Below are positions 44,662-58,928 of a DNA stretch of 64,000 nucleotides, piece by piece; positions within the stretch are counted from its first letter, which is position 1, and every line of letters begins with the position of its first letter. The notes beneath the pieces were generated by a model. It saw nothing but the letters and a program-made list of their open reading frames with translations. It searched no databases and was not told where the DNA came from. The translations under genes were made by a program, and so were the position numbers. Origin of the DNA: Sorangium cellulosum (GTDB lineage Bacteria > Myxococcota_A > Polyangia > Polyangiales > Polyangiaceae); contig NZ_CP012673.1 in the NCBI RefSeq assembly GCF_002950945.1, forward strand, positions 13,445,501 to 13,509,500. The letters are read 5' to 3'.

Positions 44662-44807
44662 GCCCGCGGCGGCGGCGCGTGCGCGCGGCGGCGGCGCGCG
44701 CGGGCGGCTCGGTGGCCGCGCGCCCTGGTCGGGACGATGGCCGGCCCTACGACCGAGCGACGGATGAAGGGAAGAGGTGCTCCGCGCGTCGGAGCAAGGA
44801 GTGGAGC

Positions 44808-45308
44808 ATGTCCTCGCGGACCCGCAGCACGACGATGAACACGGCCGTGGAGACCCACCGCGGCGAGGCGAGGCCACTTCCGGCCGGCGAGGCGCCCTCG
44901 CCGCCGGCGGGGAGCGGGCCTTCGCCGAGCGCCCCCGCGACGGGCGCGGCCGCGGTGGAGCGCGGCGACGGCGGCGGCGCGGAGCTCGCTCCGGCGGCGG
45001 AGCGGGCGCTGGCCCAGGCCGTGGCGGACGGGGCGCGCGCGCTGGGCGAGTCGACGGTGCTGTGCAGCGTGCTGCTGACGGTGGCGATCGGCTGCCTGGC
45101 GTGGTCGGTGCCGAGCCCGGGCGCGAGCGTCGGGCTGACGCTCCTCTGCCTGGTGCTGATCGCCGTGGAGCAGGCGCAGGCGCGGGTGAGGTTCCAGCGG
45201 GCCGCGGTGCGGGCCGGCCGGGAGCACGGGCTCACGCCGCCCGAGGTGGAGCGGGCGGCGCGGGCGCTGCTCGAGGCGGAGAGCGCGACCCGACCCAGGT
45301 TGGGGTAA
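44808..45308 (+). CDS. Small membrane protein of unknown function
   Basis: This 166-residue protein has an N-terminal 60 residues that are low-complexity (Pro, Ala, Gly, Glu). Two adjacent membrane helices then occupy about 84-102 and 106-122 (STVLCSVLLTVAIGCLAW and GASVGLTLLCLVLIAVE). The tail is an amphipathic helix (LTPPEVERAARALLEAE). The ATG at 44808 has a good AAGGAG site eight bases upstream; the open frame extends far upstream through the SulP gene and is not coding there. It follows the SulP gene by 146 bases and converges with the lipoprotein gene at 45324. Confidence 0.65.
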   Translation: MSSRTRSTTMNTAVETHRGEARPLPAGEAPSPPAGSGPSPSAPATGAAAVERGDGGGAELAPAAERALAQAVADGARALGESTVLCSVLLTVAIGCLAWSVPSPGASVGLTLLCLVLIAVEQAQARVRFQRAAVRAGREHGLTPPEVERAARALLEAESATRPRLG

Positions 45309-45323
45309 CGCGCGCGCGGCGCG

Positions 45324-46820
45324 CTACTCGCAGGGCAGGATGCGCAGCACCTTGATCGAGGTGCTCGTGCTGCCGGGCGCGGCGAAGGCCACGCTTCCGT
45401 CGGGGAACGCGACGAAGTCCTGATACCGGTTGCCGAGCACGTCGACCTCCAGCGGCTCGCCCTCGGCCTCGCCGGTCGCGCGGTCGCGCGCCTGCACGTG
45501 CAGCGTGCGCGCCCGGTCGTTGCGGGCGATGTCGCCCGCGGCCGTGGTGGTCTCCCAGGCGGCGATCATGCGGGAGCCGCCGTAGGCGGCGAGGTGCGGG
45601 GCGCGATGGTTGAGCCCCGGGTCGCTGGCGATCACGAGGTCCTGGTCCGCGGCGCCGTCGGTGAAGTGGAGCAATCGCACCTCCGCGAGCCCGGCCGCGC
45701 CCGCCGGCTGGCCCGGGCGGCTGTTGCTGGTGGTGAGCCAGTAGCCGCCGCCGGACGCGGTCACGAGGTTTCCCAGGTTCGAGTACGCGAGATCGACCGG
45801 ATAGATGGTGGTGTAGCTGGGCGCGAGCGCAATGCGGTTGTTGTTGTCGGTCTTGCACACCGTCACGAACTTGCCCGCGCTGTCGTCCCAGAGGATGCGC
45901 TCGTAACCGCTGTGGCTGCACCCCCAGTCGAAGCCGTCCCGCACGAGCGCCCCGCTCGCGTCGACCACCTTCATGCGGTCGCCCTGGTGGATGTTGATAC
46001 ACCCCCCTTGCGAGACGCTGATCGCCGCGCCGAAATAGCCCGCGTAACGCGAGCCGTCGAAGGCGATGCGGCCGTGGTGGGCGTACCACCAGATCATGTA
46101 CACGCTGGGCCCGGTGGGGCCGGTCGAGTAGGGCGGCAGCGCGGCGCTCGAGCTGGTGAGCTTGGTCGCCCAGGTCTCGCTCGTGCCGTCGAAGCGGACC
46201 ATGTACATGTCGTGACAGGGAACCGGAGGGGACGGCGGTGAGCCGCACAGGTTCGCCGGCGTGCCGCAATTCAATGTTCCGCCGCCCTCCGCATCCCGCG
46301 TGAGCAGCAGCACGCCGCCGGCGTCGTCGGCGTAGAGGTCGGAGAAGTCGTTGGCCGGCAGGCCGAACGGACGGCCCATGACCTGATCGCTGGTGTCGAG
46401 CTGGACGAGGTGGACCTGATCGTCGTTGCTCATCCACGCGAGCCGCGAGCCTCCGGATGGCCTCGGCGAGATGACGAGCGGCTTCAGCGCGGCCTCGTCC
46501 TCGTTGTTGATCACCGGGACTCCGACGTCGACCTCGGTGATGCGGATGTGGTCCCGGGTGATGCCACACGCCCCTGGCAGAGGACCGCCGCCCGCGCCGC
46601 CGCCGCTCGCGCTCGAGGCCGCTGCGCCGCCGCCGCTGGTGCTGGAGGGCTGGGCGCCGCCGCCGGTGGCGCTGGAGGTCCCGGCGCCGCCGCCGCTTGC
46701 GCTCGATGAACCACCCCCAGACCCGCCGCTTGTCGCTGCGGAGGTGGGCTCATCCGCGCAGGCCGCGGTCGAGGTGACAAGCGCCAGCGACAAGATGACC
46801 CGCAGGGCTCGTATCGACAT
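45324..46820 (-). CDS. Large exported lipoprotein with Ser/Gly/Ala linker
   Basis: This 498-residue protein has a lipoprotein-type signal (MSIRALRVILSLALVTSTAAC, Cys near 21) and a 60-residue spacer of SGGGA-like repeats that would hold it away from the membrane. The main domain, from about residue 85, is rich in Trp, Tyr, Asp and short strands and looks like a beta-propeller (units such as AWMSNDDQVHLVQLDTS and LHFTDGAADQDLVIASD). Six or more cysteines suggest disulfides. No catalytic motif is recognised. Its start region faces the protease array, with the 578-base gap between them holding the P1 leader. Confidence 0.78.
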   Translation of the reverse strand: MSIRALRVILSLALVTSTAACADEPTSAATSGGSGGGSSSASGGGAGTSSATGGGAQPSSTSGGGAAASSASGGGAGGGPLPGACGITRDHIRITEVDVGVPVINNEDEAALKPLVISPRPSGGSRLAWMSNDDQVHLVQLDTSDQVMGRPFGLPANDFSDLYADDAGGVLLLTRDAEGGGTLNCGTPANLCGSPPSPPVPCHDMYMVRFDGTSETWATKLTSSSAALPPYSTGPTGPSVYMIWWYAHHGRIAFDGSRYAGYFGAAISVSQGGCINIHQGDRMKVVDASGALVRDGFDWGCSHSGYERILWDDSAGKFVTVCKTDNNNRIALAPSYTTIYPVDLAYSNLGNLVTASGGGYWLTTSNSRPGQPAGAAGLAEVRLLHFTDGAADQDLVIASDPGLNHRAPHLAAYGGSRMIAAWETTTAAGDIARNDRARTLHVQARDRATGEAEGEPLEVDVLGNRYQDFVAFPDGSVAFAAPGSTSTSIKVLRILPCE

Positions 46821-47030
46821 CTCGTCAAGCTACAGCCAGAGCCGTTTTCGCTGCAACGCATCGCGCGTCACGACGTTCGGCCGGATGGTGTCCCGAGATA
46901 TCTACCGAGTCACCACACACCCGGCGCCCGAGGCGGTCCAGGCTGCGCCTTGCGCTCGATGGCGGCGCGCGCGCATCGGCGCAACCCCCGTGTGACGACG
47001 TGTTCCTCGGCAGGGGGCCTTCGATTCGCA

Positions 47031-47398
47031 GGCACGCTGGCACGTTGGCACGGCGGTGGCACGGCGGCGTGGCACGCTGGCACGAGAGCAAGGTGCCACT
47101 CGACGAGGAGGCGATGACCGCGCCTGGAACAGACCATCTCGCCGCGAGCTGCGCAGGACGCCGGTGTCGAGCCGCCGGCTCCGCGGACGGCACGGCGCGT
47201 GCAAAGCGGCCGAACGCGAGGTCGTCGCTCGGGGACGGCGGTGGGCGGATCCATCCGGGATACGCCGCGGCCGGCTCGGGAAGGTGAGCCGCCGTGCGGG
47301 CCCTCGCGCCGCCATGCGGCGGGCGCAGCGCTCTGTCTCGCGGGACGGGGAGCGCGCGCTCGGCGCGCAATCCGCTGCAACTTGGACAAGGAGAACTC
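47031..47398 (+). promoter_or_regulatory. Long repeated leader upstream of protease P1
   Basis: This non-coding block is similar along its length to those before P2 (48601-48992) and P7 (53502-53871). It starts with a GGCACG-rich cluster, has a middle with CCGCGCCTGGA and ACGGCACGGCGCGTGCA, and ends with a hairpin-rich part before AAGGAGA and the ATG. It presumably holds the promoter and a structured 5' UTR. The flanking 46821-47030 holds nothing recognised. Confidence 0.65.
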
Positions 47399-48220
47399 AT
47401 GAACAAGCAACTCTTCGCCGCCATCGGCACGGCGTTCAGCGCATTCTCGTTCGTGGCCTGTATGGCAGGAGAGGTCCCCCAGGGCATCGATCAGGAGACC
47501 GGCGGAGAGCTCGTGAGCGAGGCCGAGCAGGCGATCCTGGACGGCACGCCGGCCAGCCCGAGCGAGGCGATGGTCGTCCGCGTCTGGATACCCGACGGGT
47601 CATGCAGCGGGACGCTCCTCTCGTCGTCGAGGGTGCTCACCGCCGCGCATTGCTTCAAGTCGGCCAATCCCGCCGACTACACGGTGACGTACTCGGGCAC
47701 GAACCGGGCGGTCTCGCAGATCCTCACGCACCCGAGCGCGGCCAGCGGCGTCGACGTGGGGATCCTCGTCCTTTCGACTCCTTTTTCTCTCGGCGCCCTG
47801 ACTGAGTACCCGCAGGTGAACGTCTCCGACACCGATCACCTCATCGGCAGGGAGGTCACCTGCTACGGCTACGGCGCGGAGGACGTCGGCGGCACGTGCA
47901 CGGACGACGACGATTGTGCGGCTGGCTTTCACTGCAATGAAGACAAAGGTCGGTGCTACAAGCCGACGACGACCCTGCGCAAGGGGGAGTTCACCATCAT
48001 CAGCGATCACGAGGACACCAACAAGTGGTTCCAGCTCGACGTGCCGAACGCGAGCGGGCAGATCCCGCTGCCGGGCGACTCTGGCGGGCCGTGCATCCTC
48101 GACAACCCGGACTGGGGCACGAAGCACCTCGTGGGGGTCACCAAGGCCGGCAACCACACGAACTACTCGCGCTACACGAGCCGCGAGGCATACGCGACCT
48201 GGGTGCTCGCCAACGACTAG
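47399..48220 (+). CDS. S1A serine protease lipoprotein, array copy P1
   Basis: The 273-residue precursor has a short lipoprotein signal with lipobox FVAC (Cys21), so it should be exported and lipid-anchored. Residues 22-45 form a propeptide ending in SEAEQA. The mature protease would start at Ile46 (ILDGT, equivalent to IVGG of trypsin). The triad is His84 (LTAAHC), Asp119 (GVDVGIL) and Ser228 (GDSGGPC), with the Cys69-Cys85 bridge. A four-Cys insert (Cys167, 173, 179, 186) sits before the Ser loop. The residue six before Ser is Ile222, not the Asp of trypsin, so cleavage after Arg/Lys is unlikely. The ATG at 47399 has an AAGGAGA site. Confidence 0.92.
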   Translation: MNKQLFAAIGTAFSAFSFVACMAGEVPQGIDQETGGELVSEAEQAILDGTPASPSEAMVVRVWIPDGSCSGTLLSSSRVLTAAHCFKSANPADYTVTYSGTNRAVSQILTHPSAASGVDVGILVLSTPFSLGALTEYPQVNVSDTDHLIGREVTCYGYGAEDVGGTCTDDDDCAAGFHCNEDKGRCYKPTTTLRKGEFTIISDHEDTNKWFQLDVPNASGQIPLPGDSGGPCILDNPDWGTKHLVGVTKAGNHTNYSRYTSREAYATWVLAND

Positions 48221-48246
48221 CCCCGAGCAGGGCAGCGATGAGGTCC

Positions 48247-48279
48247 ACGAGGCGCGCGGCGCGCCGCGCCCTCGCGGCA
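48247..48279 (+). terminator. GC-rich hairpin after P1
   Basis: An imperfect stem of the CGAGGCGCGCGGC / GCCGCGCCCTCG type lies about 27 bases after the stop. It belongs to the same family as the perfect stems after P2 and P4. No U-tract follows, so termination efficiency is unknown. Confidence 0.45.
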
Positions 48280-48371
48280 CCCGCGGCTCGCCCCTGAGCC
48301 TCCCTCGCGTTCGCCTGCGCCTCTCCGGGGCGTGCCGCGCATGCAGCCGGTGACGAACCCGATCCCTGGGA

Positions 48372-48452
48372 CGTTCCCGCAGATCCTCAGGCACCCCGAG
48401 GCGTCCACGCCCAGGCGTCTACGCGGGGATCCTCGTCCTTTCGACTCCCTGA
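48372..48452 (+). pseudogene. Protease gene fragment F1
   Basis: About 80 bases match the Asp-loop region of the array genes (FPQILRHPEAS, then after a shift GVYAGILVLSTP and a stop). The codon for the catalytic Asp is TAC (Tyr). Just upstream, 48293-48358 resembles the short leader before P5. Together they mark a largely deleted copy between P1 and P2. The rest of the 772-base gap has no gene. Confidence 0.7.
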
Positions 48453-48600
48453 CCATCCCCGGCCGCATTCCGCGCCCGCGTCCATCGCAGCCTCGCGCCA
48501 GCGCTGCCGGCGGGTCGCCTCCGCCGCGCCGCCCCGCCGCGAGCAGCATGGGTGCTCGCGGCGGCGCGCGCACGCTGACGTGGGGGTGCCACGACTCGCT

Positions 48601-48992
48601 GGCACGCTGACACGCCGGCGTGCCAGCGTGCCGGCACGCTGGCACGTGAGGCGTGGCACGGCGACACGAGCGCAGCGTGCCAGTCGGCGCGGCGACGAGG
48701 ACCGCGCCTGGAGCAAGCCATTTCGCGGCGATCCGGGCAGGCCGGCAGCGTCGAGCCGTCGGATCCGCGGACGGCACGGCGCGTGCAGAGCGCAGAAGCA
48801 GCATGCGAGCTCGCCGGCGCTCGGGCCGGCGGCGGGCGGATCTACCCTGGAGAGGCCACGGTCGACTCGGGGAGGTGCGTCGCCGCACGGGCCTTTCGCG
48901 CCGTCATGCAAGAGAGCGCAGCCCTCTGTCCCGCGGGCCGGGGAGCGCGCGCTCGGAGCGCAACCAGCAGTAACTTATATCAGGAGATATTC
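48601..48992 (+). promoter_or_regulatory. Long repeated leader upstream of P2
   Basis: This is a second copy of the P1/P7-type leader. It has a dense GGCACGC/GTGCCAG cluster at 48601-48682 and a perfect GAGCGCGCGCTC palindrome near 48945-48956. It ends with CAGGAGATATTC directly before the ATG, a strong ribosome-binding site. Confidence 0.65.
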
Positions 48993-49820
48993 ATGAAGAG
49001 GCATATCCTCGCCACCCTCGGTACGGTATTCAGCGCATTCTCGTTCGTGGCCTGTATTGCAGGGGAGGCCCCCCAGGACGTCGATGGAGAGTTCGGCGAA
49101 GAGCTCGTCAGCGAGGCCGAGCAGTCGATCAAGAACGGCACGGTGGCCACCACGGGCGAGGGGATGGCCGTCCTCCTCTCGGTACCCGGCGGAAGGTGCA
49201 CCGGGACGCTCATCTCGTCGTCGAGGGTCGTCACCGCCGCGCATTGCCTTTCGACGAACACGCTGGCCGACTACACGGTGTGGTACGGGACCACCAGCCG
49301 GAGCGTCTCGCAGATCCTCAGGCACACCAATGTAGCCGGCGGCGTCGACGTGGGGATCCTCGTCCTCACGACGGCCTTTCCGTTCGGCCCGCTGACGGAG
49401 TACCCGCAGGTGAACGTCTCCGACACCGATAACCTCATCGGCAGGGAGGTCACCTGCTACGGCTGGGGCGCGGAGGACGTCGGCGGCTCGTGCACGAGCA
49501 ACGCCCAGTGCGCCGCGGGCTTCAGCTGCGATACCCGCCCCGAGCGGATGCGGTGCTTCAGGCCGACGACGACCCTGCGCAAGGGGGAGTTCACGATCAT
49601 CAGCGATCCGAACGACGACGACATGTTGTTCCGGCTCGACGTGCCGAACGCGAGCGGGCAGATCACGCTGCCGGGCGACTCTGGCGGGGGGTGCATCCTC
49701 GATAACCCGGACTGGGGCACGACGCACCTCGTGGGGGTCCACTCGGCCGGCAACCACACCAACACCTCGATCAACATCAGCCGCGAGGCCTTCGCGGCCT
49801 GGGTGCTCGCCAACGACTAG
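48993..49820 (+). CDS. S1A serine protease lipoprotein, array copy P2
   Basis: This 275-residue copy has Cys21 in the lipobox and Ile46 at the activation site (SIKNGT). The triad is His84, Asp119 and Ser230. It is the only copy in which the Ser loop ends GDSGGGC rather than GDSGGPC, a substitution next to the oxyanion hole that may alter but need not abolish activity. The four-Cys insert is two residues longer than in P1 (CDTRPERMRC). The pocket-wall segment reads HSAGNHTNTSINI. It has its own long leader and a perfect downstream hairpin, so it is probably transcribed alone. Confidence 0.92.
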   Translation: MKRHILATLGTVFSAFSFVACIAGEAPQDVDGEFGEELVSEAEQSIKNGTVATTGEGMAVLLSVPGGRCTGTLISSSRVVTAAHCLSTNTLADYTVWYGTTSRSVSQILRHTNVAGGVDVGILVLTTAFPFGPLTEYPQVNVSDTDNLIGREVTCYGWGAEDVGGSCTSNAQCAAGFSCDTRPERMRCFRPTTTLRKGEFTIISDPNDDDMLFRLDVPNASGQITLPGDSGGGCILDNPDWGTTHLVGVHSAGNHTNTSINISREAFAAWVLAND

Positions 49821-49842
49821 CCCCGAGCCGGGCAGCGGCAGG

Positions 49843-49880
49843 GCCCGCGAGGGCGCGGCGCGCGCCGCGCCCTCGCGGGC
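49843..49880 (+). terminator. Perfect GC hairpin after P2
   Basis: Perfect 17-bp arms (49843-49859 and 49864-49880) close on a GCGC loop. It is very stable but has no U-tract; it may block read-through or protect the 3' end of the mRNA. Confidence 0.65.
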
Positions 49881-49940
49881 ACCCGCGCTGGGACTGATCC
49901 ATGCGCGATTCGCGTCGTCGACTTATTCTGGAGGGATTCC

Positions 49941-50762
49941 ATGAAGAAACATGTCTATGCCGCTCTCGGCTCGATGCTCGGCGCGCTCTCGCTCGTGGCG
50001 TGCATGGCGGGCGAGGTCTCCGATGACGTTGATGGAGAGGTCAGCGAAGAGCTCGTGAGCGAGGCCGAGCAGGCCATCAAGGACGGCACGCCGGCCAGCC
50101 CGGACGAGGCGATGGTCGTCCAGCTCTACGGCGGCCTGCGATGCACCGGGACGCTCCTCTCGGACGACAGGGTGCTGACCGCCGCGCATTGCCTCACGTC
50201 GAGCAATATAGCCAGCTACTGGGTGAAGTACGCAGGCGAGAACCGGACGGTCTCGCAGGCGATCAAGTACCCCAATGCATCCACGAACGGCATCGACGTG
50301 GCGATCCTCGTCCTTTCGTCTCCTTACAGTCTCGGCATGCTGACGCAGTTCCCGGAGGTGAACATCTCCGATACCGATCACCTCATCGGCAGGGAGGTCA
50401 CCTGCTACGGCTACGGCAAGCAGGACGTCGGTGGCACGTGCACGACCGACGCCGACTGTGCGACGGGCTTCACCTGCGATACCAATCGGGACCGGTGCTA
50501 CCAGGCGTCGACGACCCTGCGCAAGGGGGATTTCACGATCATCAGCGATCCGGAGGACGACGACATCTGGTTCCGGCTCGACGTGCCGAACGCGAGCGGA
50601 CAGATCCCGCTGCCGGGCGACTCTGGCGGGCCGTGCATCCTCGACAACCCGGACTGGAGCAAGAAGCACGTCGTGGGGGTCTTCAAGGCCGGCAACCACA
50701 CGAACTACGCGCGCTACACGAGCCGCGAGGCCTTCGCGAGCTGGGTGCTCAACAACATGTAG
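49941..50762 (+). CDS. S1A serine protease lipoprotein, array copy P3
   Basis: This 273-residue copy has the most canonical lipobox of the set (LVAC) and a divergent propeptide (EVSDDVDGEVSEE). One residue is missing before His83 and one gained before Asp119 (GIDVAIL); the nucleophile is Ser228. The pocket-wall segment is FKAGNHTNYARYT, and the C-terminus is LNNM instead of LAND. The residue six before Ser is Ile. The ATG at 49941 follows CTGGAGGGATTCC. Its leader is short, unlike P2. P4 starts 56 bases downstream with no hairpin between, so P3-P4 are likely one transcript. Confidence 0.92.
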   Translation: MKKHVYAALGSMLGALSLVACMAGEVSDDVDGEVSEELVSEAEQAIKDGTPASPDEAMVVQLYGGLRCTGTLLSDDRVLTAAHCLTSSNIASYWVKYAGENRTVSQAIKYPNASTNGIDVAILVLSSPYSLGMLTQFPEVNISDTDHLIGREVTCYGYGKQDVGGTCTTDADCATGFTCDTNRDRCYQASTTLRKGDFTIISDPEDDDIWFRLDVPNASGQIPLPGDSGGPCILDNPDWSKKHVVGVFKAGNHTNYARYTSREAFASWVLNNM

Positions 50763-50818
50763 CTCCGATCATAACAGACCAATCATCGATTTTTTTTCTA
50801 TTTTCTTGGAGGATTCCA

Positions 50819-51646
50819 GTGAATAAGCATATCCTAGCCACCCTTGGTACGGTGTTCAGCGCCTTCTCGTTCGTCGCCTGTATGGCAGGAGAGGCTCCCC
50901 AGGGCATCGATCAGGAGACCGGCGGAGAGCTCGTGAGCGAGGCCGAGCAGGCCATCCTGGACGGCACGCCGGCCAGCGCGAGCGAGGCGATGATCGCCCG
51001 CGTCTGGACAGCCACCGGGTCATGCACCGGGACGTTCCTCTCGTCGTCGAGGGTGCTCACCGCCGCGCATTGCCTCACGTCGGCCAATACCGCCGACTAT
51101 ACGGTGAGCTACGGGAGCACGAACCGGGCGGTCTCTCAGATCCTCAAGCACCCGAGCGCGGCCAGCGGCGTCGACGTGGGGATCCTCGTCCTCACGACGG
51201 CCTTTCCGTTCGGCGCCCTGACGGAGTACCCGCAGGTGAACGTCTCCGACACCGATAACCTCATCGGCAGGGAGGTCACCTGCTACGGCTGGGGCGCGGA
51301 GGACGTCGGCGGCTCGTGCACGGTCGACGCCGATTGCGACGCGGGCTTTTTCTGTGATGATCGCCCGAGCCGGATGCGGTGCTTCAGGCCGACGACGACC
51401 CTGCGCAAGGGCGAGTTCACCATCATCAGCGACCACGAGGACGACGACATGTGGTTCCAGCTCGACGTGCCGAACGCGAGCGGGCAGATCACGCTGCCGG
51501 GCGACTCTGGCGGGCCGTGCATCCTCGATAACCCGGACTGGGGCACGAAGCACCTCGTGGGGGTCCACAAGGCCGGCAACCACACGAACTACTCGCGCTA
51601 CACGAGCCGCGAGGCCTACGCGACCTGGGTGCTCGCCAACGACTAG
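50819..51646 (+). CDS. S1A serine protease lipoprotein, array copy P4
   Basis: This 275-residue copy starts with GTG at 50819, set by the TTGGAGGATTCC site; a longer frame upstream only reads through P3. The triad is His84, Asp119 and Ser230. The mature region and C-terminus (HKAGNHTNYSRYT, ending SREAYATWVLAND) closely match P1, including the unusual Ala-Tyr-Ala-Thr, so P1 and P4 are close relatives. The four-Cys insert is of the long type (CDDRPSRMRC), as in P2. It shares an AT-rich T-run leader (50790-50815) with P6, P8 and P10. Confidence 0.92.
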   Translation: MNKHILATLGTVFSAFSFVACMAGEAPQGIDQETGGELVSEAEQAILDGTPASASEAMIARVWTATGSCTGTFLSSSRVLTAAHCLTSANTADYTVSYGSTNRAVSQILKHPSAASGVDVGILVLTTAFPFGALTEYPQVNVSDTDNLIGREVTCYGWGAEDVGGSCTVDADCDAGFFCDDRPSRMRCFRPTTTLRKGEFTIISDHEDDDMWFQLDVPNASGQITLPGDSGGPCILDNPDWGTKHLVGVHKAGNHTNYSRYTSREAYATWVLAND

Positions 51647-51667
51647 CCCCGCGCAGGGAGGCGACAG

Positions 51668-51707
51668 GCCCGCGAGGGGCGCGGCGCGCGCCGCGCCCCT
51701 CGCGGGC
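51668..51707 (+). terminator. Perfect GC hairpin after P4
   Basis: Perfect 18-bp arms (51668-51685 and 51690-51707) enclose a GCGC loop. It is the longest perfect member of the family of stems found after the array genes. Confidence 0.65.
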
Positions 51708-51792
51708 ACCCGCGTCGGCCCTGAGCCTCCCTCGCGCTCGTCTGCGCTCTCTGGATCGCGCGGTGCATACAGTCTGTTATGAGGAAATATTC

Positions 51793-52614
51793 ATGAAGAG
51801 GCATATCCTCGCCACCCTCGGTATGGTGTTCAGCGCGTTCTCGTTCGTGGCCTGTATGGCAGGAGAGGCCCCCCAGGACGTCGATCGAGAGACCGGCGAA
51901 GAGCTCGTGAGCGAGGCCGAGCAGGCGATCAAGAACGGCACGCCGGCCACCCCGGGCGAGGCGATGATCGTCCGCGTGTCGAGGGACGGCCGCACATGCA
52001 CCGGGACGCTCCTCTCGTCGTCGAGGGTGCTCACCGCCGCCCATTGCCTCACGTCGAACACCCTGGGCGACTACACGGTGACGTACTCGGGCACGGCCCG
52101 GTCGGTCTCGCAGATCCTCAGGCACCCCAGCGCGTCGAGCGGCGTCGACGTGGGGATCCTCGTCCTTTCGACGCCTTATCCATTCGGCGCCCTGACGGAG
52201 TACCCGCAGGTGAACGTCGCCGACACCGATGGCCTCATCGGCAGGGAGGTCACCTGCTACGGCTACGGCGCGGAGGACGTCGGCGGCACGTGCACGACCG
52301 ACGCCGACTGTGCGACGGGGTTTTACTGCCACACCGAGCGGGACCGGTGCTTCAAGCGGACGACGACCCTGCGCAAGGGGGATTTCACGATCATCAGCGA
52401 TCCGGACAACGACGACATCTGGTTCCGGCTCGACGTGCCGAACGCGAGCGGGCAGATCCCGCTGCCGGGCGACTCTGGCGGGCCGTGTATCCTCGACAAC
52501 CCGGACTGGGGCACGCAGCACCTCGTGGGGGTCACCTCGGCCGGCGATCACGCCAACGTTTCGCGCTACGCGAGCCGCGAGGCCTTCGCGAGCTGGGTGC
52601 TCGCCAATGATTAG
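51793..52614 (+). CDS. S1A serine protease lipoprotein, array copy P5
   Basis: This 273-residue copy has His84, Asp119, Ser228 and Ile46 (AIKNGTPATPG). The insert is of the short-linker type (CHTERDRC). It carries the VADTDGLIGREV variant (shared with P10 and fragments F2/F3), where most copies have VSDTDHLIGREV. The pocket-wall segment is TSAGDHANVSRYA. The ATG at 51793 follows TGAGGAAATATTC, the same last 20 bases as the P2, P7 and P9 leaders, although the upstream sequence differs. P6 begins only 34 bases after its stop, so the two are probably co-transcribed. Confidence 0.92.
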   Translation: MKRHILATLGMVFSAFSFVACMAGEAPQDVDRETGEELVSEAEQAIKNGTPATPGEAMIVRVSRDGRTCTGTLLSSSRVLTAAHCLTSNTLGDYTVTYSGTARSVSQILRHPSASSGVDVGILVLSTPYPFGALTEYPQVNVADTDGLIGREVTCYGYGAEDVGGTCTTDADCATGFYCHTERDRCFKRTTTLRKGDFTIISDPDNDDIWFRLDVPNASGQIPLPGDSGGPCILDNPDWGTQHLVGVTSAGDHANVSRYASREAFASWVLAND

Positions 52615-52648
52615 CTACGTTGTCTTTTGATTCTTTCGGAGGATTCCG

Positions 52649-53470
52649 GTGAATAAGCATATCCTTTCCACCCTCGGTACGGTGTTCGGCGCGTTCTCGT
52701 TCGTGGCCTGTATGGCTGGAGAGGCCCCCCAGGACGTCGGTCAAGAGGCCGGCGAAGAGCTCGTGAGCGAGGCCGAGCAGGCGATCCTGAACGGCACGCC
52801 GGCCAGCCCGAGCGAGGCGATGGTCGTCCGCGTCTGGGTACCCGGCGGGTCATGCACCGGGACGCTCATCTCGTCGTCGCGGGTGGTCACCGCCGCGCAT
52901 TGTTTCGTGTCGACCAACCTGGCCGACTACACGGTGACGTACTCGAGCACGGCCCGGACGGTCTCGCAGATCCTCAAGCACCCCAATGCGTCGACGGGCG
53001 TCGACGTGGGGATCCTCGTTCTTTCGACTCCCTTCCCGTTCGGCGCCCTGACGGAGTACCCGCAGGTGAACGTCTCCGACACCGATCACCTCATCGGCAG
53101 GCAGGTCACCTGCTACGGCTACGGCGCGGAGGACGTTGGTGGCACGTGCACGGACGACGGCGATTGCGCGGCGGGCTTCATCTGCGATACCGACCGGGAC
53201 CGGTGCTACAGGCCGACGACGACCCTGCGCAAGGGGGAGTTCACGGTCATCAGCGATCCGGACGACGACGACAAGTGGTTCCGGCTCACCGTGCCGAACG
53301 CGAGCGGGCAGCGCCCGCTGCCGGGCGACTCTGGCGGGCCGTGCATCCTCGATAACCCGGACTGGGGCACGCAGCACCTCGTGGGGGTCCACAAGGGCGG
53401 CAGCCTCAACAACACCGCAATCGAGACGAGCCGCGAGGCCTTCGCGACCTGGGTGCTCGCCAACGACTAG
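52649..53470 (+). CDS. S1A serine protease lipoprotein, array copy P6
   Basis: This 273-residue copy starts with GTG at 52649 after TCGGAGGATTCCG, the same start type as P4. The triad is His84, Asp119 and Ser228. It is the only copy with Arg six residues before the nucleophile (SGQRPLPGDSGG); if this is the S1 position, it would favour acidic or different substrates. The pocket-wall segment HKGGSLNNTAIET is also distinct. The activation site is ILNGTPAS. No GC hairpin follows; instead the P7 leader begins within 32 bases. Confidence 0.92.
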   Translation: MNKHILSTLGTVFGAFSFVACMAGEAPQDVGQEAGEELVSEAEQAILNGTPASPSEAMVVRVWVPGGSCTGTLISSSRVVTAAHCFVSTNLADYTVTYSSTARTVSQILKHPNASTGVDVGILVLSTPFPFGALTEYPQVNVSDTDHLIGRQVTCYGYGAEDVGGTCTDDGDCAAGFICDTDRDRCYRPTTTLRKGEFTVISDPDDDDKWFRLTVPNASGQRPLPGDSGGPCILDNPDWGTQHLVGVHKGGSLNNTAIETSREAFATWVLAND

Positions 53471-53501
53471 CCCCGAGCAGGGCAGCGACGGGGGCCACGG
53501 C

Positions 53502-53871
53502 CGGCACGCGAGGCGCGGCACGCTGGCACGCGAGGCGCGGCACGCTGGCACGAGCGCAACGTGCCAGCCGCCGCGGCGACGAGGACCGCGCCTGGAACAG
53601 GCGATTTCGCGGCGATCCAGGCAAGCCGGCAACGTCGAGCCGCCGGAACCGAGGACGGCACGGCGCGTGCAAGATGGCAGAATGTGAGGTCGCCGGCGCT
53701 CGGGGCCGGCGGTGGGCGGATCTACCCTGGAGACGCCACGGCCGGCTCGGGGAGGTGCGCCGCCCCAAAGACCCTTCGCGCCGTCATGCAAGGGAGCGCA
53801 GCCCTCCGTCCCGCGGACGGGGAGCGCGCGCTCGGAGCGCAGCAAGCTGTAACTTAGATGAGGAAATCTTC
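53502..53871 (+). promoter_or_regulatory. Long repeated leader upstream of P7
   Basis: This is the third copy of the long leader. The GGCACGC cluster occupies 53502-53568. Near the end two adjacent perfect palindromes, CCGTCCCGCGGACGG (53806-53820) and GAGCGCGCGCTC (53822-53833), could form stacked hairpins in the 5' UTR. ATGAGGAAATCTTC precedes the ATG. Confidence 0.65.
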
Positions 53872-54699
53872 ATGATGAGACATGTCCTTGGCACCCTCGG
53901 TACGGTGTTCAGCGCCTTCTCGTTCGTGGCCTGTATGGCAGGAGAGGCTCCCCAGGACGTCGATCAGGAGACTGGTGAAGAGCTCGTTAGCGAGGCCGAG
54001 CAGGCGATCAAGAACGGCACGCCGGCGGACGCGGGCGAGGCGATGGTCGTCCGCGTCTCCTCGCCAGACGCGAGCTGCACCGGGACGCTCATCTCGTCGT
54101 CCAGGGTGGTCACCGCCGCGCATTGCCTCACGTCGAACAATCCAGCCAGCTACACGGTGACGTACGCGGGCACGACCCGGTTCGTCTGGCAGATCCTCAG
54201 GCACCCCGATGCGGACGACGGCGTCGACGTGGGGATGCTCGTCCTCTCGTCGGCCTTTCCCCTCGGCGAATTGACGGAGTACCCGCAGGTGAACGTCTCC
54301 GACACCGATCATCTCATCGGCAGGCAGGTCACCTGCTACGGCTACGGCAAGCAGGACGTCGGCGGCGCGTGCACGAGCAACGCCCAGTGCGCCGCGGGCT
54401 TTACCTGCGACACCCGCCCCGATTACATGCGGTGCTTCAAGTCGTCGGCGATCCTGCGCAAGGGGACTTTCTCGGTCATCAGCGATCCGGACGACGACGA
54501 CATCTGGTTCCAGCTCGACGTGCCGAACGCGAGCGGGCAGCTCCTGCTGCCGGGGGACTCTGGCGGGCCGTGCATCCTCGACAACCCGGACTGGGGCACG
54601 AAGCACCTCGTGGGGGTCAACATGTCCAGCAACTTCTCCAGTATCTCGGTCGCCACGAGCCGCGAGGCCTTCGCGAGCTGGGTGCTCGCCAACGATTAG
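53872..54699 (+). CDS. S1A serine protease lipoprotein, array copy P7
   Basis: This 275-residue copy starts MMRHVLGTLG at 53872. The triad is His84, Asp119 and Ser230. The residue six before Ser is Leu (SGQLLLPGDSGG), shared only with P9. The insert is of the long type (CDTRPDYMRC), and the following strand is SSAILRKGTFSVIS rather than TTTLRKGEF. The pocket-wall segment NMSSNFSSISVAT lacks the AGNHTN pattern of P1-P4. These features pair it with P9. Its 3' end is followed by a hairpin and then a protease gene fragment fused to the spacer. Confidence 0.92.
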   Translation: MMRHVLGTLGTVFSAFSFVACMAGEAPQDVDQETGEELVSEAEQAIKNGTPADAGEAMVVRVSSPDASCTGTLISSSRVVTAAHCLTSNNPASYTVTYAGTTRFVWQILRHPDADDGVDVGMLVLSSAFPLGELTEYPQVNVSDTDHLIGRQVTCYGYGKQDVGGACTSNAQCAAGFTCDTRPDYMRCFKSSAILRKGTFSVISDPDDDDIWFQLDVPNASGQLLLPGDSGGPCILDNPDWGTKHLVGVNMSSNFSSISVATSREAFASWVLAND

Positions 54700-54721
54700 C
54701 CCCGAGCAGGGGAGCGACAGG

Positions 54722-54760
54722 GCCCACGAGGCGCGCGGCGCCCGCCGCGCCCTCGCGGGC
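54722..54760 (+). terminator. Imperfect GC hairpin after P7
   Basis: Stem of the GCCC-CGAGGCGCGCGGC / GCCGCGCCCTCG-GGGC type with one arm mismatch. Its right arm runs directly into the ACCCGC joint with fragment F2. Confidence 0.55.
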
Positions 54761-54912
54761 ACCCGCAGGTGAACATCGCCGACACCGATGGCCTCATCGG
54801 CAGGGAGGTCACCCGCTGCGGCTACGGCAAGCAGGACGTCGGTGGCACGTGCACGACCGACGATGACCGCGATAAGGGCTCCACCTGTCATAGCGGGCTG
54901 GACCGGTGCTAT
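54761..54912 (+). pseudogene. Protease gene fragment F2
   Basis: About 150 bases code in frame for VNIADTDGLIGREVTRCGYG and the cysteine insert (GGTCTTDDDRDKGSTCHSGL), matching residues of about 139-187 of an intact copy. Two cysteines are altered. The left joint is at ACCCGC, a hexamer present both in the spacer after each hairpin and in the gene (GTACCCGCAGGTGAAC), so microhomology joining is likely. It runs into the AT-rich P8 leader. Confidence 0.8.
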
Positions 54913-54952
54913 TCGATTCATTTGATATTATTGTATTTTTTTGAGGAGACCA

Positions 54953-55780
54953 GTGAAAAATCATATTCTTGCCACCCTCGGTACGGTGCTCAGCGCCTTC
55001 TCGTTCGTCGCCTGTATGGCAGGAGAGGCCCCCCAGGAGGTCGATCAGCAGAGCGGCGAGGAGCTCGTGAGCGAGGCCGAGCAGTCGATCAAGAACGGCA
55101 CGGCGGCCAGCGTGGGAGAGGCGATGGTCGTCAACGTCTCCAAGCCAGGCGGGAACTGCACCGGGACGCTCATCTCGGACGACAGGGTGGTCACCGCCGC
55201 GCATTGCCTCCCATCGTCCGATCCATTCGCTTACTCGGTGACGTACGCAGGCACGTTCCGGCCGGTCTCGCAGGTCCTCAAGCACCCCAATGCGTCCAGC
55301 GGCGTCGACGTGGGGATCCTCGTCCTCACGGATCCTTTCCCATTGGGCCCCTTGACGGAGTACCCGGAGGTGAACGTCTCCGACACCGATCACCTCATCG
55401 GCAGGGAGGTCACCTGCTACGGCTTCGGCGCGTACGCCATCGGCAGCGCGTGCACGAGCCACTCCGATTGTAACGTGGTCGGGGGATGGGTCTGTGATAC
55501 GGAACATGACAAGTGCTTCAAGACGTCGACGATCCTGCGCAAGGGGGACTTCACGATCATCAGCGATCCGGACAAGCCCAACATCTCGTTCCAGCTCGAC
55601 GTGCCGAACGCGAGCGGGCAGATCCCGTTTCCGGGCGACTCCGGCGGGCCGTGCATCCTCGATAACCCGGACTGGGGCAAGACGCACCTCGTGGGGGTCT
55701 ACTCGGAAGGCAACGCCGTCAGCATCTCGACCTACACGAGCCGCGAGGCTTTCGCGAGCTGGGTGCTCGCCAACGACTAG
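54953..55780 (+). CDS. S1A serine protease lipoprotein, array copy P8
   Basis: This 275-residue copy starts with GTG at 54953, set by TTGAGGAGACCA; an upstream ATG at 54941 would sit on the ribosome-binding site. The triad is His84, Asp119 and Ser230. The four-Cys insert is unusual (CNVVGGWVC, two residues longer between the second and third Cys). The Ser loop reads SGQIPFPGDSGG, and the pocket-wall segment is YSEGNAVSISTYT. The SDDRV and LPSSDPF wording before and after His is shared with P10, its likely sister. The leader is a short T-rich run. Confidence 0.92.
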   Translation: MKNHILATLGTVLSAFSFVACMAGEAPQEVDQQSGEELVSEAEQSIKNGTAASVGEAMVVNVSKPGGNCTGTLISDDRVVTAAHCLPSSDPFAYSVTYAGTFRPVSQVLKHPNASSGVDVGILVLTDPFPLGPLTEYPEVNVSDTDHLIGREVTCYGFGAYAIGSACTSHSDCNVVGGWVCDTEHDKCFKTSTILRKGDFTIISDPDKPNISFQLDVPNASGQIPFPGDSGGPCILDNPDWGKTHLVGVYSEGNAVSISTYTSREAFASWVLAND

Positions 55781-55794
55781 AGGGGCCCTTTGCG

Positions 55795-55885
55795 CCGTGA
55801 TGCAAGGGAGCGCAGCCCTCCGTCCCGCGGACGGGGAGCGCGCGCTCGGAGCGCAGCAAGCTGTAACGTAGATGAGGAAATCTTC
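55795..55885 (+). promoter_or_regulatory. Short copy of the repeated leader upstream of P9
   Basis: These 91 bases are nearly identical to the last part of the P7 leader, including the CCGTCCCGCGGACGG and GAGCGCGCGCTC palindromes, but the upstream GGCACG-rich part is missing. This marks the part kept with the duplicated block. Confidence 0.7.
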
Positions 55886-56707
55886 ATGATGAGACATATT
55901 CTTGCCACCCTCGGTACGGTGTTCAGCGCCTTCTCGTTCGTGGCCTGTATGGCAGGAGAGGCTCCCCAGGACGTCGATCAGGAGACCGGCGAAGAGCTCG
56001 TGAGCGAGGCCGAGCAGGCGATCAAGAACGGCACGCCGGCCGACGCGAGCGAGGCGATGGTCGTCCGCATCTTCGCGCCAGACGGGGGCTGCACCGGGAC
56101 GCTGATCTCGTCGTCCAGGGTGGTCACCGCCGGGCATTGCGTCACGTCGAACGATATACCCAACTACGCGGTGACGTACGCGGGCACGGCCCGGGGCGTC
56201 GGGCAGATCATCAGGCGCGTCAATCCGGACGACGGCGTCGACGTGGGGATCCTCGTCCTCTCGTCGGCCTTTCCCCTCGGCCAATTGACGGAGTACCCGC
56301 AGGTGAACGTCTCCGACACCGATCACCTCATCGGCAGGCAGGTCACCTGCTACGGCTGGGGCGCGGTGGACGTCGGCGGCGCGTGCACGAGCAACGCCCA
56401 GTGCGCCGCGGGCTTCACCTGCGATACGGAATGGAGCCGGTGCTTCAAGTCGTCGGCGATCCTGCGCAAGGGGACTTTCACGGTCATCAGCGATCCGGAC
56501 GAGCCCAACATCTGGTTCCGGCTCGACGTGCCGAACGCGAGCGGGCAGCTCCTGCTGGCGGGGGACTCTGGCGGGCCGTGCATCCTCGACAACCCGGACT
56601 GGGGCACGAAGCACCTCGTGGGGATCAACAAGGACAGCGACCTCTCCAGTGTCTCGATCGCCACGAGCCGCGAGGCCTTCGCGAGCTGGGTGCTCGCCAA
56701 CGACTAG
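55886..56707 (+). CDS. S1A serine protease lipoprotein, array copy P9
   Basis: This 273-residue sister of P7 starts MMRHILATLG. The triad is His84, Asp119 and Ser228. The His motif is VTAGHC instead of TAAHC, and the Ser loop is SGQLLLAGDSGG (Ala for Pro), both unique in the array. Leu occupies the presumed S1 base. The insert is of the shorter type (CDTEWSRC). The pocket-wall segment is NKDSDLSSVSIAT, close to P7. Activity is expected because all triad residues remain. A hairpin and fragment F3 follow, in the same order as after P7. Confidence 0.92.
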   Translation: MMRHILATLGTVFSAFSFVACMAGEAPQDVDQETGEELVSEAEQAIKNGTPADASEAMVVRIFAPDGGCTGTLISSSRVVTAGHCVTSNDIPNYAVTYAGTARGVGQIIRRVNPDDGVDVGILVLSSAFPLGQLTEYPQVNVSDTDHLIGRQVTCYGWGAVDVGGACTSNAQCAAGFTCDTEWSRCFKSSAILRKGTFTVISDPDEPNIWFRLDVPNASGQLLLAGDSGGPCILDNPDWGTKHLVGINKDSDLSSVSIATSREAFASWVLAND

Positions 56708-56729
56708 CCCCGAGCAGGGGAGCGACAAG

Positions 56730-56768
56730 GCCCGCGAGGCGCGCGGCGCCTGCCGCGCCCTCGCGGGC
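56730..56768 (+). terminator. GC hairpin after P9
   Basis: Arms GCCCGCGAGG and CCTCGCGGGC with a GC-rich interior. Same position and type as after P7, and likewise fused to a gene fragment at its right edge. Confidence 0.55.
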
Positions 56769-56822
56769 ACCCGGAGGTGAACATCATCGCCGACCTCGAT
56801 GGCCTCATCGGCAGGGAGGTCC
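56769..56822 (+). pseudogene. Protease gene fragment F3
   Basis: About 54 bases starting at ACCCGGAGGTGAAC match the region around residue 138-153 (VNIIADLDGLIGREV), with one inserted codon. It corresponds to F2 but is cut shorter before the T-rich P10 leader. It supports duplication of the whole P7-P8 block. Confidence 0.7.
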
Positions 56823-56878
56823 TACTGCACTTCGATCCATTTACTTCTTATTGTTTGTTTTTTTCTGTGAGGAGCCCA

Positions 56879-57700
56879 ATGAAGAATCATGTTTTTGCCA
56901 CTCTCGGTACGGTGCTCAGCGCCTTCTCGTTCGTGGCCTGTATTGCAGGAGAGGCCCCCCAGGAGATCGATCAAGAGCACGGCGAAGAGCTCGTGAGCGA
57001 GGCCGAGCAGGCGATCAAGAACGGCACGGCGGCCAGCCTGGGAGAGGCGATGGTCGTCCGCGTCTCCAAGCCAAACGGGGAATGCACCGGGACGCTGATC
57101 TCGGATGACAGGGTGCTCACCGCCGCGCATTGCCTCCCGTCGGCCGATCCATTCGACTACTCGGTGACCTACGCAGGCACGTTCCGGCCGGTCTCGGGGG
57201 TCCTCAAGCACCCCAGTGCGTCCAGCGGCATCGACGTGGGGATCCTCGTCCTCACGGATCCTATGCCACTCGGCTCCCTGACGGAGTACCCGGAGGTGAA
57301 CGTCGCCGATACCGATGGCCTCATCGGCAGGGAGGTCACCTGCTACGGCTTCGGCGCGCAGGACGTGGGTAGCTCGTGCACGAGCACCGCCCAGTGCGCC
57401 GCGGGCTTTACCTGTGTTCCGGTCCAGAACAAGTGCTTCAAGCTGTCGGCGACCCTGCGCAAGGGGGACTTCACGATCATCAGCAATCCGGTCAACGACG
57501 ACGACTTCTTCCGGCTCGACGTGCCGAACGCGAACGGGCAGATCACGCTGCCGGGCGACTCGGGCGGGCCGTGCATCCTCGATAACCCGGACTGGGGCAA
57601 GAAGCACCTCGTGGGGGTCTACTCGCAAGGCAACCTCGTCAGCTCCTCGATCTACACGAGCCGCGAGGCCTTCGCGAGCTGGGTGCTCGACAACGACTAG
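56879..57700 (+). CDS. S1A serine protease lipoprotein, array copy P10
   Basis: This 273-residue copy is last in the array and sister to P8 (MKNHVFATLGTVLS, SDDRV, LPSADPF, YSQGNLVSSSIYT). The triad is His84, Asp119 (GIDVGIL) and Ser228. It uses VADTDGLIGREV like P5. The four-Cys insert is the most altered in sequence (CVPVQNKC) but keeps all four Cys. The presumed S1 residue is Ile. The ATG at 56879 follows TGAGGAGCCCA and a T-rich leader. No hairpin follows directly; dispersed palindromes now occupy its 3' flank. Confidence 0.92.
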   Translation: MKNHVFATLGTVLSAFSFVACIAGEAPQEIDQEHGEELVSEAEQAIKNGTAASLGEAMVVRVSKPNGECTGTLISDDRVLTAAHCLPSADPFDYSVTYAGTFRPVSGVLKHPSASSGIDVGILVLTDPMPLGSLTEYPEVNVADTDGLIGREVTCYGFGAQDVGSSCTSTAQCAAGFTCVPVQNKCFKLSATLRKGDFTIISNPVNDDDFFRLDVPNANGQITLPGDSGGPCILDNPDWGKKHLVGVYSQGNLVSSSIYTSREAFASWVLDND

Positions 57701-57736
57701 TTCCGCCCGTCAGACGTCTTGGCAGGGATCACGGCG

Positions 57737-57840
<104 letters not shown>

Positions 57841-57849
57841 CGGGATCCA

Positions 57850-57970
57850 CTAGAGCGACAAACGGGTTGAACCCGTCTGAAACGAGCAGATTTTCGAACC
57901 GCCAAGGCGCCAAGGACGCCAAGAAGGAGAAGAAAATATCTTGGCGCCCTTGGCGTCTTGGCGGTTCATC
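57850..57970. repeat. Second copy of the CTAGAGCG / CGCCAAG palindromic repeat
   Basis: Related to the intron-split repeat at 25626: both run CTAGAGCG, AACGGGTTGAACC, CTGAAACGAGCAGA, TTCGAA, then CGCCAAGGCGCCAAG stems around an AT-rich centre. This copy lacks the outer right arm and is not interrupted by an intron. Confidence 0.9.
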
Positions 57971-57994
57971 TCTCGTTCCTCAACGTGATCGGTG

Positions 57995-58085
57995 TTCTAG
58001 CCCCGCGCAGCACAACGACGAGGTCCACGAGGCGCGCGGCGCGTGCCTCGCCCTCGCGGACCCCCTCATCGGTCCCTGACCGTCC
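57995..58085 (+). other. Displaced 3' flank of a lost array gene
   Basis: The run TTCTAGCCCCG, then CGAGGTCCACGAGGCGCGCGGCGCG and CCTCGCCCTCGCGG, matches the stop codon and hairpin region after P1. It lies 295 bases past the P10 stop, beyond two palindromic repeats. The array therefore once extended here. Otherwise 57701-58204 has no gene. Confidence 0.6.
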
Positions 58086-58178
58086 TCACGCCCGCCTGCG
58101 CCCTCGGGCCCGCCCCGGCGCCGGCCCTGCTCGCCGTCGTGGACGGGGCCGACCCCCGCCGCGCCCACTTGCTTCCCC

Positions 58179-58202
58179 GTTAGTAAGTGCCATGTTACTA
58201 AC
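58179..58202. promoter_or_regulatory. TetR-type operator abutting the start codon
   Basis: Perfect 8-bp arms GTTAGTAA and TTACTAAC are separated by 8 bases and end two bases before the ATG at 58205. Its position would let the TetR protein block its own expression. No room remains for a ribosome-binding site, so the mRNA may be leaderless. Confidence 0.75.
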
Positions 58203-58204
58203 AA

Positions 58205-58807
58205 ATGGTCCGCCCCCGCAGCACCACCGACGAGGCGATCCTCGAGGAGGCCCGCGCCTGCTTCCTCGAGCACGGGGCCGGCGTGTCGACGACCGTGATC
58301 GCGGCGCGGCTGGGCATCTCGCACGGCGTCCTGTTCCAGCGCTTCGGCACCAAGGAGCAGCTGATGCGCGCCGCGCTGCTGCCCCCGCCGGAGCCGCCGT
58401 GGCTGCCGCAGGTGCGGTCGGGCCCTGACGACCGCGACGCGCGGACCCAGCTCCTCGAGCTCGCGGAGGAGATTTCCGCCTACCTCGAGCGCATCGTGCC
58501 GTGCGTCGCGGTGCTCCGCTCGGCCGGCATGCCCATCGAGACCTCGACCCAGCCCCGCGAAGACCTCCCCCCGGTGCGCGCGCGCCGCGAGATCGCCGCC
58601 TGGTTCGCGCGCGCCGTCGCGCGCGGCCTGCTGCGCCCGGCCACGCCGGAGCACGCCGCCGACCTCTTCCTCGGATCGCTCCACTTCCGCCCGTTCCACC
58701 AGCACATCTCGGGCAAGGGCTTCGGCCAGGCCGACGGCCGCGCCTACCTCGAGTTCGCCGTCGACGTGCTCTGCCGCACGCTCGACCCCGCCGGGGATCC
58801 GCGGTGA
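58205..58807 (+). CDS. TetR family transcriptional repressor
   Basis: This 200-residue repressor has an N-terminal HTH (about 10-55: ILEEARACFLEHGAGVSTTVIAARLGISHGVLFQRFGTKEQL) and an all-helical ligand-binding domain. The C-terminal part with HAADLFLGSLHFRPF is typical of repressors that control efflux. It is followed after 121 bases by a DHA2-type transporter on the same strand, the usual pairing, so it probably represses itself and the pump until a toxic ligand binds. The ATG at 58205 is preceded by the palindromic operator. Confidence 0.92.
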   Translation: MVRPRSTTDEAILEEARACFLEHGAGVSTTVIAARLGISHGVLFQRFGTKEQLMRAALLPPPEPPWLPQVRSGPDDRDARTQLLELAEEISAYLERIVPCVAVLRSAGMPIETSTQPREDLPPVRARREIAAWFARAVARGLLRPATPEHAADLFLGSLHFRPFHQHISGKGFGQADGRAYLEFAVDVLCRTLDPAGDPR

Positions 58808-58928
58808 TCCCCCGGGACCTCCCGCGCCCTTCGGCCCGGCCGCCGCGGCGCGCCTGCTCTCCCCTGCTTCGCGCCTGTTCACCCAACGACGCGGGCCGCC
58901 GCTCCGGCGGCGCCGCGGGAGCTCCTTG

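Follow-up and report, generated by a model that had tools for sequence, protein, structure and literature searches.

The 64,000-nucleotide stretch of the Sorangium cellulosum genome analysed here (the window; positions 13445501-13509500 of a single contig of 14,557,589 bases) carries a tandem array of ten genes, P1 to P10, for predicted lipoproteins of the S1A family of trypsin-like serine proteases. The ten copies are maintained intact, and a subset of their sites is under positive selection. We see it as an even call that these surface proteases form a diversifying set specific to the lineage, whose positively selected loops widen the substrate range. The enzyme family is well known, and the array is more interesting than a plain one because selection is focused on the loops of the cleft; this suggests that, in this soil myxobacterium, a group of related enzymes may be evolving and not just a larger amount of one. 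The integrity of the genes, the fold, the lipobox pattern, the positive selection and its positions, the gene relics and the absence from the other genomes searched were all obtained by computation.

Integrity, fold and selection of the ten copies

The first-pass annotation had described ten consecutive genes for proteins of 273-275 residues, and they were recovered at the same coordinates (47399-57700, all on the + strand) without an internal stop in any of the open reading frames. Of the 696 parsimony changes, neutrality would make about 12.5 nonsense, and none was observed. Each gene is preceded by a purine-rich, ribosome-binding-like stretch. The proteins are 62-84% identical (mean 71%, 45 pairs), and 300-nt blocks recur nine to ten times across the array with 60-94% identity to the reference copy, far beyond chance.

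The proposed membership of the S1A family was borne out: the Pfam family Trypsin (PF00089) matches all ten proteins with 44.7-65.3 bits, above the cut-off of 20.6 in every case, and the profile search did not place them outside the family, an outcome the first-pass annotation had allowed for. The catalytic His, Asp and Ser, which occur in the expected order, the Asp preceding the Ser and the activation-site Ile are invariant in all ten; that annotation had also claimed a shared triad and activation site. In the representative copy P5 the Ile is residue 46, presumably Ile16 in chymotrypsin numbering, and together with the equally invariant Asp227 (Asp194) it is predicted from the residues to form a zymogen-type pair. 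A PROSITE-type lipobox with Cys at residue 21 fits ten of the ten sequences, in line with the lipoprotein signal noted before; from it, lipidation and a surface location of P1-P10 are predicted. The ten products are likewise predicted to be active as enzymes. The defence proteases Avs1b (19.7-23.7 bits in four proteins with NCBIfam, cut-off 1500, and in P5 with PADLOC) and LmuA (19.5 bits in P5) both fell short of a full-length match, which covered just a part of the protease domain.

Mature P5 was modelled with a mean predicted local distance difference test score (pLDDT) of 92.1 and a predicted template modelling score of 0.90 from an alignment of 43 rows, 10 of them from the array. With just these ten paralogues as input the model had been poor (pLDDT 47.9), and the 33 extra rows, taken from further loci, improved it. 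The modelled chain has the double beta-barrel of the S1A fold. All 50 Foldseek matches listed for it are trypsin-like proteases (E 3.7e-13 to 2.8e-12), with the Saccharopolyspora erythraea trypsin 4M7G on top (E 3.7e-13, template modelling score, TM, 0.73); thrombin and chymotrypsin are matched as well. With 4M7G and the Fusarium trypsin (1TRY/1PPZ) the array shares the fold (TM 0.73-0.77 by query length), the order of the triad, the motifs TAAHC and GDSGG, the activation Ile and Asp194. It differs from them in sequence (23-27% Foldseek identity), in the replacement of Trp215, in Ser214, which is often Lys or Met, and in having a predicted lipoprotein anchor and, within the autolysis loop, a mini-domain with four cysteines.

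Gene-average selection on the array is purifying, with a ratio of nonsynonymous to synonymous rates (dN/dS, omega) of 0.43 under model M0 versus 0.09 for a flanking control gene (0.067-0.116 in 15 of 15 pairs). By codon position, the differences are distributed as 0.39/0.31/0.30 in the array and as 0.29/0.19/0.52 in the control. Codon site models reject neutrality for the array: in the comparison of M1a with M2a, twice the log-likelihood difference (2dlnL) was 40.3 (p 1.8e-9), with 5.9% of the sites at omega 4.8, and M8a against M8 gave 39.3. Null simulations of M1a against M2a reached at most 5.2 on a single tree (40 simulations) and 9.3 with one breakpoint (another 40, of which one exceeded 5.99). 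These simulations used fixed branch lengths, and the real data handled likewise again gave 40.3. Each half of the gene, on its own tree, was also significant (2dlnL 28.4 and 22.0), and the control gene gave 0.0. The dN/dS computation on the ten aligned proteins that the first-pass annotation had proposed has a median of 0.44 when codon frequencies are modelled, with positive selection appearing in the site models. Nei-Gojobori estimates (median 1.00, many pairs above 1) were discarded, since codon bias inflates them at a G+C content of 0.87-0.92 in third codon positions.

The copies differ most in loops that, by sequence numbering, surround the active site in the S1A fold. Nine sites of the mature domain have a posterior above 0.8 in the whole-gene analysis (64, 68, 91, 104, 178, 182, 183, 184 and 256 in P5 numbering), and a tenth, 32, lies in the propeptide. 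Eight of the nine fall in the cleft segments (37, 60, 99, autolysis with 141, 189-192 and 213-228, placed by the same numbering), which hold 31% of the residues (binomial p 0.0005). The cleft segments have a mean omega of 1.15, the rest one of 0.41, and none of 227 circular shifts was equally extreme; the lowest of the six is 189-192 with 0.63. The stretches 233-244 and 260-273 are conserved (omega 0.20 and 0.25). When the halves were analysed separately, sites 64, 68 and 91 passed in the N half and 158, 172, 178, 182, 183, 184, 248, 249 and 256 in the C half.

Sites 178 and 182-184 belong to an insert that replaces the autolysis loop, spans about 30 residues and has four cysteines, all invariant; it is located between a CYGYG motif and an LRKG strand and modelled with high confidence (block mean pLDDT 94-97). 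The insert resembles the myxobacterial Cys-rich repeat TIGR04201 (Myxo_Cys_RPT), a resemblance short of membership: three of four scanned copies matched with E 6e-5 to 2e-4 and 21.3-23.1 bits, below the cut-off of 25, and no match was listed for the fourth, P8. The closest Pfam families, Dickkopf_N and EB, are weak, sub-cut-off matches. In the array proteins a single copy sits within the catalytic domain, and to find such a repeat reused in the autolysis loop would be unusual. The Polyangium loci L050, L051 and L080, and L052 and L053 of other Myxococcota, carry this insert at the equivalent position and have the domain layout of the array (L050-L053 being 30-39% identical to P5); L054 retains just two of the four cysteines. 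The insert therefore characterises a rare subfamily and did not arise with the array.

Distribution in other genomes

Among the genomes searched, the array is restricted to this lineage. The array profile gives 521.7-554.0 bits for the ten genes, in their own genome only. No similar array was found in 58 relatives, including five congeners (best match 47.8 bits; congeners at most 40.8), or in a phylum-wide draw of 377 genomes, which includes the own genome, overlaps the set of 58 and was searched at E 1e-7, scoring up to six candidates in each genome. The five best outside matches in this draw had 154.8, 145.3, 108.5, 83.7 and 63.3 bits. The search of databases and relatives suggested by the first-pass annotation thus confirmed the S1A family, and no similar arrays turned up in either genome set.

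The 154.8-bit match is taken as Polyangium sp. 15x6, and a further genome of its genus (six were searched) gave 152.4 bits. The homologues occur as one strong match per genome and carry C-terminal extra sequence that the array proteins lack; a sigma-54 regulator, a kinase and other genes that neighbour one of the Polyangium homologues offer no hint to function. A contig scan with a broader alignment found 110 relatives, of which 80 were kept, and an earlier scan with two peptide patterns had confirmed none. The four-cysteine motif is found in at least two of the 80 loci (L081 and L082), a lower bound because many of the matched stretches end before the insert.

The six Sorangium genomes, two of which are in about 900-1300 contigs, have 34 (this genome), 19, 24, 24, 18 and 15 Trypsin-family matches at E 1e-6, and no other cluster of three or more such matches within 10 kb was seen in them. 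A mobile origin of the array was rejected: plasmid and phage collections contained no tblastn match to it, and no viral contig was confirmed in a scan limited to two peptide patterns. In a blastn comparison (E 1e-20, at least 200 nt) of the window plus 20 kb to its right with five congeners (40 kb from three of them, whole contigs of 11-12 kb from two), the left-flank gene was the sole shared stretch, and therefore an empty-site comparison is not possible.

Explanations for the divergence of the copies

A single secreted S1A gene of the rare myxobacterial subfamily with the four-cysteine mini-domain would have multiplied in this lineage of Sorangium through duplications in tandem and of two-gene units, and the ten survivors would stay intact while positive selection drives the substrate-contacting loops apart. 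Their products would be exported, lipidated at Cys21 and tethered to the envelope through the N-terminal segment, with activation by cleavage ahead of Ile46. Together, the copies would widen the range of extracellular proteins, from prey or other substrate, that can be cut. Since the 37-, 60- and 220-region loops and the Cys mini-domain vary from copy to copy, substrate preferences should vary too, and both distinct specificities and a role in feeding seem plausible on these grounds. Slightly more tentatively, we propose that the locus keeps yielding new S1A specificities by tandem birth and death of genes, with positive selection concentrated on the cleft loops and on a domesticated Cys-rich repeat that would serve as a variable exosite next to the catalytic centre.

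A broader diet is not the only pressure that could move these loops, as inhibitors of S1A proteases contact the 37, 60, autolysis and 220 loops. If cleft loops and mini-domain changed so as to evade inhibitors of prey, competitors or phages, substrate preference could have stayed largely constant. The selected sites do sit in inhibitor-contacted loops, four of the nine in the mini-domain and not in the S1 pocket segments, and among the cleft segments mean omega is lowest in 189-192, which would be expected to set the P1 preference. The sequence would fit either pressure; escape alone, however, does not require that ten copies are kept together, and we consider it rather unlikely. Drift of surface loops under relaxed constraint, with redundancy after duplication, would agree with the raised gene-average omega relative to the control and with gene relics that indicate dispensable copies. 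This non-adaptive account is nevertheless improbable, as it has to accommodate a class of sites at omega 3.6-4.8, a 2dlnL of 40 where 80 simulations gave 9.3 or less, the complete lack of stop codons and the conservation of other stretches such as 233-244 and 260-273.

The first-pass annotation had offered selection for dosage or diversity. The latter is supported by the site-model test, the null simulations and the cleft sites. The roles that it suggested, in predation, digestion of prey protein or defence, are putative. That ten copies chiefly raise the output of one protease might be read from their being intact and in tandem, from the similarity of their signals and from gaps that are in part short (34 and 56 nt), but identities of 62-84%, excess change in the cleft and little homogenisation speak against it. 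With 16-38% protein difference, strongest in the cleft segments, dosage is unsupported as the main cause, and we give it a very slim chance. Scarcely better are the prospects of a role outside feeding, in an activation cascade, the processing of a developmental matrix or as lipoprotein effectors exchanged between kin. The SitA toxins of Myxococcus are lipoproteins passed among kin by outer-membrane exchange, and the lipobox in all ten copies and the zymogen-type activation site would suit such a role; the triad, however, is of the general-protease type, and no immunity-like partner gene was seen between the copies. An exchange of outer-membrane lipoproteins is described for myxobacteria (PMC3325183).

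Several observations weigh against a diversifying set of surface proteases. With codon frequencies modelled, none of the 45 pairs reaches an omega of 1, and the deficit is significant for 41 of them (F3x4) or 42 (F61); the case for positive selection therefore rests on the site models. These were run with our own scripts instead of PAML, and M8a against M8 also gave a signal for the control gene (p 0.005), for which reason M8a is less trusted and M1a against M2a is relied on. The cleft segments were set once the site list was known, though they match textbook loops; the non-cleft loop 97-105 (the 70-80 loop) has a mean omega of 1.24 and one selected site, 104; sites 32 and 104 fall below 0.8 in the N-half analysis; and 182-184 adjoin indels, where misalignment can mimic selection. 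Position 189 (numbered by hand), which is Asp in trypsin, carries Ile in seven copies, Leu in two and Arg in P6; a trypsin-like preference for Arg or Lys would therefore not be expected. Ser214 is usually conserved in S1A proteases, as part of a typical Ser214-Trp215-Gly216 segment that the array does not have: position 214 is Lys in five copies, Ser in four and Met in one, position 215 is A, G, S, E, D or Q, and position 216 is Gly in eight and Ser in two. To our knowledge the segment is not strictly required, but Lys or Met at 214 in six of the ten copies may lower the predicted activity.

A conserved signal with a variable mature part, venom-style, is unsupported (mean omega 0.54 in the signal, 0.50 in the propeptide and 0.63 in the mature part). 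Gene conversion as the chief driver was rejected, as one tract only passed the global test (P3-P4, p 0.008; also scored in P1-P3, p 0.059); the half-gene trees were not rejected by approximately unbiased tests (p 0.059 and 0.079), and there is little sign of homogenisation among the copies.

The predatory Bdellovibrio bacteriovorus is similarly rich in S1 proteases: 24 trypsin-like genes (PMC2605481) and the protease BspK (PMC5288813) have been proposed to act in predation, and the passages concerned mention neither a recent tandem array of one family nor site-specific positive selection. Predatory bacteria are credited with large sets of proteases (for example in PMC2605481), and the selective force behind these is hard to test. 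Ten intact, clonable paralogues that differ mainly in active-site loops would make specificity, inhibitor sensitivity and function comparable copy by copy. Diversifying S1A paralogues are also described for the mammalian chymase locus (PMC8537139) and for reptile venom serine proteases (PMC11511063). The likeness is functional; these animal arrays are immune or venom genes, and a common origin with the Sorangium array is not claimed. If our reading is true, the array would be a bacterial counterpart of them. Among the papers listed in searches of the open-licence literature there was no report of a bacterial or myxobacterial tandem S1A array under positive selection.

Growth and surroundings of the array

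In trees of the nucleotide and of the protein sequences, the sister pairs P7/P9 and P8/P10 have 100% support; the split of P1 and P4 from the remaining copies is supported with 100% and 98%. The intergenic gaps of 34-772 nt contain gene relics and repeats (Table 1). As the relics of the P7-P8 and P9-P10 spacers share their left edge, a two-gene unit was probably duplicated during growth, and the orphan post-gene sequence beyond P10 is best read as the remnant of one more array unit. The 15 lowest of the 45 synonymous distances (dS, F3x4) in the array are 0.11-0.38, below those between congeners at the left-flank gene (0.62-1.13); this fits duplication within this lineage, although unequal rates or conversion could mislead such timing.

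Table 1. Features of the protease array (window positions; residues in P5 numbering)
Feature	Position	Strand	Remarks
Repeated upstream block before P1	47048..47351	+	weaker; families D16, D17
P1, S1A protease lipoprotein	47399..48220	+	273 aa, ATG
Gene relic, P1-P2 spacer	48348..48456	+	gene nt ~284-391; 76-90% over 30-112 nt
Repeated upstream block before P2	48632..48942	+	families D16, D17
P2	48993..49820	+	275 aa, ATG; GDSGGG past nucleophile (GDSGGP in other nine)
GC-rich palindrome 3' of P2	49833..49890	.	29-nt arms, 86%
P3	49941..50762	+	273 aa, ATG; longest tree branch
P4	50819..51646	+	275 aa, GTG; 56 nt downstream of P3
GC-rich palindrome 3' of P4	51668..51707	.	20-nt arms, 100%
P5	51793..52614	+	273 aa, ATG; representative copy, modelled
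P5 Ile46, predicted zymogen cleavage point	51928..51930	+	invariant in ten copies
P5 37-loop	51979..51996	+	residues 63-68; sites 64, 68 in positive-selection class
P5 catalytic His84 (57)	52042..52044	+	invariant in ten
P5 60-loop	52048..52071	+	residues 86-93; site 91 in positive-selection class
P5 catalytic Asp119 (102)	52147..52149	+	invariant in ten
P5 four-cysteine mini-domain, replaces autolysis loop	52270..52365	+	residues 160-191; Cys167, 173, 179, 186; sites 178, 182, 183, 184 in positive-selection class
P5 catalytic Ser228 (195)	52474..52476	+	invariant in ten
P5 213-228 segment, S1/S3 wall	52534..52569	+	residues 248-259; site 256 selected; 248-249 in C-half analysis only
P6	52649..53470	+	273 aa, GTG; 34 nt downstream of P5; Arg at position 189, elsewhere Ile/Leu
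Repeated ~300-nt upstream block before P7	53516..53822	+	families D16, D17
P7	53872..54699	+	275 aa, ATG; sister of P9
Gene relic, P7-P8 spacer	54747..54911	+	gene nt 395-560; 78-88%
P8	54953..55780	+	275 aa, GTG; sister of P10; Cys mini-domain +2 residues
P9	55886..56707	+	273 aa, ATG; sister of P7; TAGHC (TAAHC in other nine) and LAGDSGG variants
Shorter gene relic, P9-P10 spacer	56755..56821	+	77-84%; left edge gene nt 395, as in P7-P8 relic
P10	56879..57700	+	273 aa, ATG; sister of P8
Orphan copy of post-gene sequence	57998..58068	+	no gene directly upstream; 80% to reference copy; family D15

The upstream blocks of P1, P2 and P7 are 62-89% identical among each other, whereas P4, P6, P8 and P10 are preceded by a short T-rich leader instead; perhaps these are two modes of expression. 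At the settings that gave the palindromes after P2 and P4, none was found after P1, P7 and P9. No RNA family reached its gathering score within 44000-60000, the promoter scan returned two sites, both on the - strand, and the terminator-like sites (9 versus 4.5 in shuffles) all lie inside genes by their coordinates. The 2-kb bins of the array have a slightly lower G+C content (0.64-0.70), while 21 of the 26 remaining bins of the window are at 0.70-0.75.

To the left of the array, a lipoprotein-like gene on the - strand (45327-46820) without Pfam or NCBIfam match has an orthologue with 83-87% identity in all five congeners; its neighbours were not found next to the orthologue in the congener stretches compared. 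Next to that orthologue, one block is common to the congeners G002 and G004, and further blocks are common to G002 and G003. Just 3' of P10 lie two palindromic repeats (57746-57835 with 36-nt arms and 57896-57967 with 29-nt arms). A 19-nt piece of the second, AACCGCCAAGGCGCCAAGG, has 50 forward and 49 reverse copies in the genome (0 for the backwards control), often paired and facing each other about 50-70 nt apart, which would suit a dispersed family like miniature inverted-repeat transposable elements or repetitive extragenic palindromes. Further to the right (58205-62336), a TetR regulator, an EmrB/DHA2-type efflux pump and a macrolide-type glycosyltransferase lie in a row and resemble a putative module for drug efflux or self-protection; in none of the five congeners does the pump find a match above 40% identity. 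Outside the window, at G000:C1:14079697-14080313, a trypsin-family gene is apparently broken, with two matched pieces, one of which contains an in-frame TGA.

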